From positions 62,001 through 126,000 of the forward strand of contig JAPLFJ010000012.1 in the NCBI GenBank assembly GCA_026390735.1: a stretch of DNA of 64,000 nt, written 5' to 3'. Origin of the DNA: Ignavibacteriota bacterium. Lineage in GTDB: Bacteria; Bacteroidota; Ignavibacteria; Tepidaquicellales; Tepidaquicellaceae. The notes beneath the pieces are model-generated. The model was not told the DNA's origin. It worked only from the letters and a program-made list of their open reading frames with translations, and did no database searches. Shown one piece after another: positions 54,187 to 58,802 of this stretch. Positions within the stretch are counted from its first letter, which is position 1; each line of letters begins with the position of its first letter. The position numbers were made by a program, and so were the translations under genes.

Positions 54187-54582
54187 TTAATTTATTGACT
54201 TTACAAATGCACTTGTAAACCCTTTGGATTTAACAAAAGCAAGATAATCCTGTGCAGATGCAGCATCGAAAAACTTACCAGCAGTGACAAGGTAAAAGCT
54301 TCCGGACTTCCTAACGTCAGGAACCGAGTTCAGTTTTTCTTTAGCAGAAACAACGAATGCATCAGCATAACTTTGTTCTTTAAAAGCAGCCAACTGGACT
54401 ACAAATGTTAAATTAACCTTTTGAATGTTTCGTTGTTCTTTAATCAATGTATCGACATTCAAAACAACTGTGTCTCTTAATACATAGATATCTTCATCTT
54501 CATCACCAGATGAACAAGATGACATTAAAGAGACAAGAACAAATGCCATTAATATAAACGGATATATGTATACTTTTTTCAT
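54187..54582 (-). CDS. SPOR-domain lipoprotein 1
   Basis: Exported protein of 131 residues from the ATG at 54582; an ATG ten codons earlier would add a basic extension in front of the signal peptide and is less likely. The lipoprotein signal is IYPFILMAFVLVSLMSSCSS with the Cys in MSSC, then an acidic run (GDEDEDIY). The SPOR domain is at about 55-130 (LTFVVQLAAFKEQSYADAFV; GSFYLVTAGKFFDAASAQDY). It heads the run SPOR1-SPOR2-folD-prmA-cupin-transporter. Confidence 0.85.
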   Translation of the reverse strand: MKKVYIYPFILMAFVLVSLMSSCSSGDEDEDIYVLRDTVVLNVDTLIKEQRNIQKVNLTFVVQLAAFKEQSYADAFVVSAKEKLNSVPDVRKSGSFYLVTAGKFFDAASAQDYLAFVKSKGFTSAFVKSIN

Positions 54583-54612
54583 AATGAGATTTTTTACGTT
54601 TTTATTAAACAT

Positions 54613-55020
54613 AATAAAACATTAAAAATTACGTTGACCAACATACAGTTCAACTTTTCTTAAGTTAACTATTTTCTGATAAATAACAAATGTAATATAA
54701 AGTAAACATTTAAGTCTTTTGGTTATAAATTTCTGAATCATAATACATTTCACATATATCATTTATTGAAATACTTAACAATTAAATTTATATATATTAT
54801 CATAATTATTTGAAATCACAAGAGATTATTTTCAGGCATGAATATTTCAGAAAATTCAATCTAATTGTTAAGGGAATATCATAAAGCAAGAGTGAATACT
54901 TTCAACAAGGTGATTTCTTTTAACAAATTTTTCATGGTAACAATGCTATAATCCCTCAGAACATTATCTATTTAAAGCAAGTTACGCTTATGGCGGAATA
55001 GACAGGGCTTGTATCACAGT
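54613..55020. other. Non-coding AT-rich DNA upstream of the MITE-like element
   Basis: No gene seen. It must carry the promoter of the SPOR-folD operon. The last bases (55005-55016, GGGCTTGTATCA) are the left copy of a 12-bp direct repeat whose other copy is at 55318-55329. Confidence 0.45.
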
Positions 55021-55312
55021 TGTCCAAAATAAATTGGGAACACAAATAAAGGCTCATTTATAGCTCAATTTGGCAGATTTCATATCAATTATACCACTTT
55101 CTAAAACAACCCCTAATTCAAGTATATTAGGGTGCATTCTGCTGTCCAAAACATTTTCTATCTTTGATATTCTAAGAGAAACTATTAAAGCTATGTTTGT
55201 AGAGTGTTTTCAATGATTTATATGACTTTAATTGCATTACACTATCTCAAGCAGGATGTTTGAGTTACTCTCTGCTGTCCAAAACATTTCCTTAAAAGAG
55301 TTATTTTGGACA
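55021..55312. mobile_element. MITE-like non-coding element with 12-bp terminal inverted repeats
   Basis: The ends TGTCCAAAATAA (55021-55032) and TTATTTTGGACA (55301-55312) are exact reverse complements, enclosing 268 bp with no meaningful open frame. Two internal copies of CTGTCCAAAACATTT start at 55142 and 55275. Direct repeats GGGCTTGTATCA flank the element at 55005-55016 and 55318-55329, separated from its ends by 4 and 5 bp. This fits a decayed miniature transposable element. The alternative is a degenerate tandem repeat whose last part (55275-55313) also serves as a hairpin terminator for the gene ending at 55334. Confidence 0.5.
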
Positions 55313-55333
55313 GATGTGGGCTTGTATCAATTA

Positions 55334-56800
55334 TTAATTACTCATCAAATATTCTTTTATTCCCTGAATACCGCCTTCTCTTCCGAATCCGCTCTCTTTA
55401 TAACCTCCAAATGGTGAAGCAGGACTGAATTTATTGAATGTATTAGTCCAGATTACACCTGCTTTTATTTTCTTCATTATTTTTAAAGCCTTTGAGCCTT
55501 TATCGGTCCATATTCCAGCAGATAATCCATAAAATGTATTATTTGCTTTCTCTACTGCTTCATTAGGAGTTCTGAATGTAAGAACCGTCAATACAGGACC
55601 AAAAATTTCTTCATTAGCAATTCTGTGTGACTGAGCTACATTTGTAAAAAGTGAGGGTGCACACCAATATCCCTTATTTGGCAGCTGGCATTTGCTTTGA
55701 TATAAGGTTGCTCCTTCATCAACTCCTGATTTTATAAGCTCATTAATTTTATTTAACTGAGCCTTTGAGTTAATAGAACCTACATCAGTATTTTTATTCA
55801 GGGGATTGCCTACGATTAAATTATTTATTCTGGATTCCAACTTTTTAATTAGTTTATCTTTAATGCTTTCCTGTACAAGAAGCCTTGAGCCGGCACAGCA
55901 GACCTGTCCCTGATTAAAATAAATTCCTTTTATAATACCTTCCACAGCATCATCGAGAGAAGCATCTTCGAACACAATGTTCGCCGCTTTGCCTCCGAGT
56001 TCCAGTGTCAGTTTTTTATCAGTATCAGCAACGGCTCTCATTATAATTTTACCAACATCAGTAGAACCTGTGAATGCGATCTTTTTCACTTTCGGATGAT
56101 TTACGATGCAGGAGCCTGTGTATCCGTCTCCTGAAATAATATTGACAACACCTTCCGGGATTCCTGCCTCCTGAATAATTTCAGCAAGTTTATACAATGT
56201 GAGCGGAGTAGTTTCGGCTGATTTTATCACAACTGTATTACCGCATGCAAGTGCAGGTGCTATTTTCCACGCCGCCATAAGTAAAGGAAAATTCCATGGG
56301 ACAATCTGTCCAACCACACCGATTGATTTTGGTTCTTTATCGTGACACGCATACTCTAATTTATCCGCCCAACCTGCATAATAGAAAAAGTGTGCAATAG
56401 AAGTCGGAATATCGAAAGCTTTGGATTCTTTAATAGGCTTTCCTACATCCATACTTTCTATTACTGAGAATTCACGTGCCTTTTCCTGTAATATACGTGC
56501 AATTCTGTAAATGTACTTCCCTCTTGCCTTAGGGGATAAATCCTTCCATACCTTATTGTATGCTTTCTCTGCGGAGTTAACAGCTGCATCAACGTCCTTT
56601 TCATTAGCATAAGCTACTTTTGAAAGAATCTCCTCGTTAGAAGGATTTATAGTATTAAAATATTTTTTCGCTTTAACCCATTTCCCGCCTATAAACAAAT
56701 CATACTTATCAGACAGCTTAATATGTTTTGTATCTTCAAAAGAATCTGAATATTTCAATGTAGGTTTATTTGTATTCTTATTTTTTAACTGGGTTCTCAT
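55334..56800 (-). CDS. NAD(P)-dependent aldehyde dehydrogenase
   Basis: Cytoplasmic enzyme of 488 residues oxidising an aldehyde to its acid. NAD domain: [20 protein letters not shown], then [16 protein letters not shown] and [12 protein letters not shown]. Catalytic Glu in [12 protein letters not shown] and catalytic Cys in [25 protein letters not shown] and [16 protein letters not shown] near the end. Intact. The closest genes are deoC (40 bp upstream, same strand) and a divergent ALDH-like pseudoenzyme. It may oxidise acetaldehyde from the DeoC reaction; that is inference from context. Confidence 0.94.
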
Positions 56801-57926: not shown

Positions 57927-58802
57927 ATGAGCACAAGAATTGAAATACCGAAGATGTATAAGCTATTTATCGGCGGTAAATTTGCAAGAACAGAATCTGA
58001 AAGATATATTGAAGTCATAAATCCTAAAACGAAGGATAAAATCTGTAATATATCAAGGGCGTCGAGAAAAGATGTAAGAAATTCGGTAGTTTCTGCACGT
58101 TCAGGGTTTAGCAGCTGGTCTTCAAAATCAGGTTATGAAAGAGGGCAGATATTATACAGGTTTGCAGAAATGCTTGAGGGAAGAAAAGAACAGTTTATTG
58201 AAGAAATTTATATATCAACTTTACGAACAAAGTCTGAATGCAGAAATGAAGTGTCAAAGGCAATAGACAGGATTATTTATTATGCAGGTTTTGCAGATAA
58301 ATGGATGCAGTTAATAAGCAGTGTGAATCCCGTACAGGAAGGATACTTTAATTTTTCTGTTCCTGAGCCGGTAGGTGTTGTAGGTGTTATTCTTCCTGAC
58401 AACCTTAGCTTTCTTCCACTTGTATCCAGAATTCTTGTTATACTCACCACAGGGAATTCTTGTGTAATAATCGCGAACGAAAAATCTCCGTTACCATCTT
58501 TAACATTATCTGAAGTTATTGCAACGAGTGATTTTCCTTCCGGTGTAATAAATCTTCTAACAGGTCAAAAGAGTGAACTGATATCTCATCTTGCAGGTCA
58601 TTTTGACATAAACGCAATAGATTATTGCGAAGAGACAGGTAATAACAGAAAGCTGATTAAAGAATTGTGTGCGAATAATGTAAAGAGATTTTACGAAACA
58701 GGTAACAGCAAAAGCTGGAACTGGTTTTCTGATAAACAAAATGAGAATTTTAAGGAAATCGAAAAATTCACAGAACTAAAAACTGTGTGGCAATCGGCAT
58801 AA
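57927..58802 (+). CDS. Aldehyde dehydrogenase-like pseudoenzyme
   Basis: Protein of 291 residues covering only the N-terminal and NAD-binding region of an ALDH (YKLFIGGKFARTESERYIEV; EPVGVVGVILPDNLSFLPLV), then jumping to a short tail ending FTELKTVWQSA, the normal ALDH-family oligomerisation end. The catalytic domain is missing: there is no catalytic Cys, no ELGGK Glu and no EIFGPV motif. PWN of active enzymes is PDN here. Reading frame and tail are intact, so it looks like a maintained non-catalytic partner, similar in kind to the second, degenerate domain of ALDH16 proteins. It is divergent from deoC and the full ALDH. Confidence 0.85.
   Translation: MSTRIEIPKMYKLFIGGKFARTESERYIEVINPKTKDKICNISRASRKDVRNSVVSARSGFSSWSSKSGYERGQILYRFAEMLEGRKEQFIEEIYISTLRTKSECRNEVSKAIDRIIYYAGFADKWMQLISSVNPVQEGYFNFSVPEPVGVVGVILPDNLSFLPLVSRILVILTTGNSCVIIANEKSPLPSLTLSEVIATSDFPSGVINLLTGQKSELISHLAGHFDINAIDYCEETGNNRKLIKELCANNVKRFYETGNSKSWNWFSDKQNENFKEIEKFTELKTVWQSA

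Follow-up and report, generated by a model that had tools for sequence, protein, structure and literature searches.

The element examined here is, with high confidence, a MITE: a non-autonomous derivative of an insertion sequence of the IS4 family (IS4Sa-like) that was probably moved in trans. It is a real element of an ordinary kind, because other copies of it and at least two copies of its likely parent are present in its own genome. The window, that is, the whole stretch of 64,000 nucleotides that was analysed, is part of contig C35 of a genome of 4.0 Mb in 69 contigs. The element lies between genes: on one side is a SPOR-domain gene (54187-54612), on the other an aldehyde dehydrogenase gene (55334-56800) on the minus strand, whose 3' end faces the element.

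Boundaries and anatomy of the element

The first-pass annotation had bounded the element by perfect 12-bp terminal inverted repeats. The 12-mer TGTCCAAAATAA is present at 55021-55032 with its exact reverse complement at 55301-55312, and there are no other exact matches in the window. Extended outward, the inverted repeat grows to 18 bp with 16 of 18 positions matched (left end CACAGTTGTCCAAAATAA; reverse complement of the right end CACATCTGTCCAAAATAA). Thus terminal inverted repeats exist as proposed, but the true ends are longer and imperfect, and the corrected boundaries enclose 304 bp (Table 1). Direct repeats of 12 bp, GGGCTTGTATCA, had been described 4-5 bp outside the ends. They are indeed found at 55005 and 55318, but the true repeat within them is a 9-bp target-site duplication, GGCTTGTAT, which abuts the 304-bp element exactly on both sides. 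In the left copy of GGGCTTGTATCA the CA forms the first two bases of the element, and in the right copy the leading G is its last base; the remaining extra letters are chance matches. The two internal copies of CTGTCCAAAACATTT are present at 55142 and 55275. Inside the element lie a 22-bp direct repeat, which contains the end core, and a REP-like palindrome.

Table 1. Coordinates of the element and its parts in the window
Feature	Position	Strand	Evidence
Target-site duplication, left copy GGCTTGTAT	55006..55014	+	exact 9-bp repeat abutting the element
Element read as a MITE, 304 bp	55015..55318	+	18-bp terminal inverted repeats, 9-bp duplication, and a full-length copy of 80% identity on contig C29
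Terminal inverted repeat CACAGTTGTCCAAAATAA, corresponding to the transposase 3' end of the likely parent insertion sequence	55015..55032	+	end type as on C21/C64, followed inward by the stop of a transposase-like reading frame
Segment homologous to the likely parent's 3' non-coding end, reaching roughly to the AACAACCCC box next to the stop of the transposase gene	55015..55130	+	sister copy on C29 against the C64 insertion-sequence end, 72% over 104 bp, E 2.75e-10; alignment of ends
Internal direct repeat, copy 1, with end core CTGTCCAAAA	55138..55159	+	
REP-like palindrome CTCAAGCAGGATGTTTGAGTTAC	55246..55268	+	9 genome matches to the pattern with 2 mismatches at most
Internal direct repeat, copy 2	55271..55292	+	
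Terminal inverted repeat CACATCTGTCCAAAATAA (minus-strand reading), corresponding to the transposase 5' end of the likely parent	55301..55318	-	end type as on C57/C62, followed inward by the start of a transposase-like reading frame
Target-site duplication, right copy GGCTTGTAT	55319..55327	+	

The whole window was searched for pairs of 18-bp ends that match at 14 or more positions, lie 100-1600 bp apart and are bordered by an exact 9-bp repeat. Only the 304-bp element has this structure. As a control, 60 order-1 Markov windows of the same composition were searched, and none contained such a structure. The list of open reading frames (80 aa or longer) has no entry inside the element, and the earlier statement that no transposase lies in the window is not contradicted near the element. 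The element is therefore short, has terminal inverted repeats, is bordered by a target-site duplication and carries no transposase, as is characteristic of MITEs.

The intergenic position and a modest folding signal (z -1.69) would also suit a conserved, non-mobile regulatory or RNA element. However, Rfam gave no family matches over 54600-55400, the folding is unexceptional (5 of 100 shuffles were as good), and the sequence recurs at unrelated loci with different 9-bp duplications. We consider a regulatory or RNA element extremely improbable.

The best match to the neighbouring aldehyde dehydrogenase in the four other genomes of the genus was a distant one (40%), so that an empty site in the genus could not be shown. 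Near a full aldehyde dehydrogenase and a DeoC-family gene, an open reading frame of 291 aa (57927-58802) covers no more than the first half of the profile for aldehyde dehydrogenases (4-233 of 461) and is perhaps a shortened paralogue.

Further copies in the same genome

Copies at unrelated loci were searched for with the window segment 55003-55330 (328 bp) as query. This resulted in 16 matches, the element itself counted. A second full element is located at C29:157205-157511; it is 307 bp long, 80% identical over 310 aligned columns, and has its own 9-bp duplication, TTCTAAAAT. Among the partial copies, C15 has a right end preceded by four tandem module units, C68 has another right end, and C33 a short remnant. 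Left-end matches occur on C21, C64, C49 and C60, and solitary palindromes were also detected.

A second MITE family has the ends of the window element and another interior. Whole copies lie on C13 (305 bp, duplication TGAATGCCA), C16 (274 bp, without a perfect duplication) and C49 (309 bp, starting at the contig end), and partial copies on C36 and C60.

The exact end sequence CACAKCTGTCCAAAAT was found 11 times in the genome, and the reversed-pattern control gave none. When the end pattern was relaxed to 2 mismatches, 38 matches stood against 63 in the reversed control. Since this is no excess, only matches with at most 1 mismatch served as leads. Two near-matches of the end core were set aside, one at C12:1302, which lies inside a 684-aa open reading frame, and one at C63:32292, where the longer end matched only at 3 mismatches.

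Resident copies of the likely parent

A transposase gene bordered by the ends of the element was looked for in the same genome, and at least two insertion-sequence copies were found flanking contig breaks. Contigs C21 and C64 end 141 bp inside an insertion sequence, entered through its CACAGCT end, and contigs C57 and C62 begin 140 bp inside one, through its CACATCT end. The flanking 9-bp duplications pair these contigs: AGCGGATAC is shared by C21 and C57, and ACTCTCAAT by C64 and C62. In our reading, one insertion sequence is present here twice, and the assembler was unable to place its body. Over the visible 140-141 bp at each end the two copies are identical to each other. One end shows a reading frame beginning MVKITLLGQIFNKLN, and the other shows a frame ending IEEFQYQLF at a stop codon. 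As the body is absent from the assembly, the transposase is known only by its first 15 codons and last nine.

The 3'-type end of the MITE is homologous to the end of this resident insertion sequence: the C29 copy matches the C64 end (Table 1), and the window copy aligns with the same end. Together with the visible start and stop of an IS4-type transposase gene, this makes the insertion sequence at C21/C57 and C64/C62 the likely parent of the MITE. Thus the first-pass reading of the element as a MITE is supported both by further copies at unrelated loci (one full-length, several partial, and a second family with equal ends) and by an insertion sequence with matching ends.

A transposase search of the genome returned only an IS4-type gene on C28 and an IS701-like gene on C15. 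The latter was rejected as a parent; it scores best on IS701 models and stays below their cut-offs. The C28 gene is the only assembled IS4_1-type transposase. It encodes an intact protein of 390 aa and belongs to a sister IS4-family element with ends CACTACTGTCCCGTT, which are unlike those of the MITE. Contig C60 begins inside an element with a CACTACTGTCCCGTT-type end.

These observations bear on present activity rather than on the identity of the element. It may be a dead relic, a MITE by origin that can no longer be mobilised, with the active transposase of the lineage having the end specificity of the C28 type. The two full copies of the family differ by 20%, the left end of the window element deviates from the common CACAGCTGTCC at one base, and the one IS4_1-type transposase that is complete in the assembly belongs to an element with different ends. 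On the other hand, the terminal repeats and the 9-bp duplication are intact, and the genome holds two insertion-sequence copies with matching ends that are mutually identical over their visible parts. We regard loss of mobility as possible, but somewhat doubtful.

Complete relatives and assignment to the IS4 family

We scanned a collection of genomes from 84,980 species with the longer end sequence CACAKCTGTCCAAAATAA and obtained at least 114 stretches, often at contig ends. Among the matches listed, four are complete elements of 1355-1420 bp (L066, L067, L068 and L072). A perfect 9-bp duplication borders L066 and L072; L067 shows none, and L068 begins at a contig end. The transposase gene is followed by the CACAGCT end and preceded by the other one (CACATCC or CACACTT). 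An all-against-all BLAST detected no match between the MITE interior and these four insertion sequences beyond the ends.

The transposases of three of the four (L066, L068 and L072) were measured and scanned with profiles. They are 390-393 aa long, have matches to DDE_Tnp_1 and DUF4372, and exceed the cut-offs of NF033592 (IS4), PF01609 and PF14294. For NCBIfam NF033592 the scores were 248.8 (L068), 257.8 (L072) and 243 bits (L066), with a cut-off of 115. A PDB sequence search with the L068 transposase found nothing.

The IS4 family is marked by a transposase encoded in a single ORF, with the motifs D(60-110)D(100-150)E and Y(2)R(3)E(6)K; for the IS4Sa subgroup, a survey of the family gives ends beginning CA with T at position 9, lengths of 1150-1750 bp and duplications of 8-10 bp (De Palmenaer et al. 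2008, PMC2266710). In accordance with this, the three transposases carry D(65)D(104)E and the full YREK motif, and the complete relatives have CACAKCTGT ends of the CA......T form, lengths of 1355-1420 bp and a 9-bp duplication, about one helix turn. Unlike the IS4Sa elements, the window element lacks a transposase, and the longer end CACAKCTGTCCAAAATAA is absent from the table of that paper (PMC2266710). The likely parent is therefore placed in the IS4 family as IS4Sa-like; the subgroup was assigned by table features and not from a tree that includes ISfinder members.

ISPosp4 of Polaromonas, annotated as an IS4-like element (NC_007950.1), is a more distant relative. It is 1328 bp long with ends CAGTAGTGTCCGG and a 9-bp duplication AGATTCGAT, and its transposase is 33.8% identical to that of L068. 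Its ends agree with those of the MITE only in the first CA and the TGTCC core. Together with elements from Persicobacter and Parabacteroides it forms three such plasmid relatives, all with 9-bp duplications and CA....TGTCC ends.

The leaders between end and gene start were compared for L066, L068/L168, L072, L083 and L169/L170, the last being the C57/C62 copies of the own genome. One motif search caught these five distinct leaders, and all five fold into a stem whose 3' arm reaches the start codon. The folding z was -4.3 to -6.6 against mononucleotide shuffles, the stem sequences differ, and in the own-genome leader the outer stem has only 4 bp. The search was incomplete and missed others, e.g. 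L179. Leader hairpins protect the transposases of IS10 and IS50 from read-through, and the stems seen here possibly protect from read-through transcription in the same way.

Target-site duplications and distribution

Ends were paired by script, each with the nearest opposite end, over 13 loci of the own genome and the 114 loci among the matches listed for CACAKCTGTCCAAAATAA. From these loci 32 end pairs were kept, three without a flank and 29 with both flanks. A perfect 9-bp duplication was seen in 12 of the 29. As a control, left and right flanks of different pairs were combined, and none of the 812 mismatched pairings reached 8 of 9 positions. The other 17 pairs, the C16 copy among them, have no perfect duplication; chance pairing or decay of the copies probably accounts for some of the 29.

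Exact CACAKCTGTCCAAAAT is present in 6 of 29 genomes of the family, with no match of the reversed control in any of the 29. The 328-bp query matched 4 of 59 genomes of relatives, the own genome included, and the matches in the other three were short (23-48 bp). The same query found no match in the plasmid collection, and the end pattern was found zero times in viral contigs. Among the matches listed, CACAKCTGTCCAAAATAA ends come from records titled Ignavibacteria, Bacteroidetes, Nitrospirae, Deltaproteobacteria and other groups.

Probable origin of the MITE, and its interior modules

Mobilisation in trans is likely, judged from the anatomy. The MITE keeps the ends of its likely parent and, next to one of them, some 110 bp of 3' non-coding sequence; where the transposase gene would be, it holds unrelated filler, including the REP-like palindrome. 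A resident IS4-type transposase may then have bound the 18-bp ends and excised the 304-bp element. Insertion would have taken place into a 9-bp staggered cut, 6 bp beyond the stop codon of the aldehyde dehydrogenase gene, and gap repair would have duplicated GGCTTGTAT.

The palindrome was searched for separately and gave nine matches in the genome (at most 2 mismatches), against none in the reversed control. The pattern CTCAAGCANGATGYTTGAGTTAC occurs at C29:29349, C63:34769 and C42:61048 without recognised MITE ends, and also at C35:48771. At C15:65773-66193 a degenerate MITE right end terminates a run of four tandem units whose palindromes are spaced by about 116 bp; this array is the inner module of the MITE amplified in tandem. 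A second module, AACCCTGAANGGGTTNAATATGAATAACC, gave 13 matches at up to 3 mismatches and none in the reversed control. It lies on C49, C56, C60, C1, C16, C58, C13, C39, C43 and C54, in some cases inside the second MITE family.

The element might therefore be looked at mainly as a carrier of REP-like or tandem-repeat modules, in which the palindrome spreads and the IS4-type ends are incidental. The recurrence of the palindrome, at several sites apart from MITE ends, would fit this, as would the different module of the second family, likewise found elsewhere, and the C15 array adjoining a degenerate MITE end. However, the exact 9-bp duplications sit at the IS4-type ends and not at the palindrome, and the last mobile unit was therefore the whole 304 bp. 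We judge incidental ends to be quite improbable and keep to an IS4-derived MITE.

MITEs with interior repeats are known from Porphyromonas gingivalis, where BrickBuilt and MITE464/PgRS have insertion-sequence ends, tandem repeats inside and no transposase remnant (PMC4596501). The window MITE resembles them in all three respects: insertion-sequence ends, repeats inside and the absence of a transposase remnant. They differ in having IS5-family ends, 23- or 41-nt repeats and irregular duplications, whereas the window MITE combines ends of IS4 type with 9-bp duplications and a palindrome-bearing unit of about 116-133 bp. None of the papers among the matches listed in literature searches dealt with MITEs of this end type, which does not prove absence.

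In summary, the reading as a MITE, first made from the sequence alone, is confirmed, and a likely parent is named at contig breaks of the same genome. Since CACAKCTGTCCAAAATAA ends occur in records of many groups, these MITEs and their parents could be annotated widely. The element is of a known kind; less ordinary are MITE interiors with palindromic modules that are also found alone, once as a four-unit tandem array. Two MITE families with equal ends each carry a different module of this sort. We put forward, as a speculation with rather low odds, that the IS4-type MITEs of this lineage are vehicles for palindromic REP-like modules. If so, the dispersed repeats of such genomes would have spread partly by borrowed IS4 ends, and interior modules that are passengers would provide one route for the spread of REP-like repeats.
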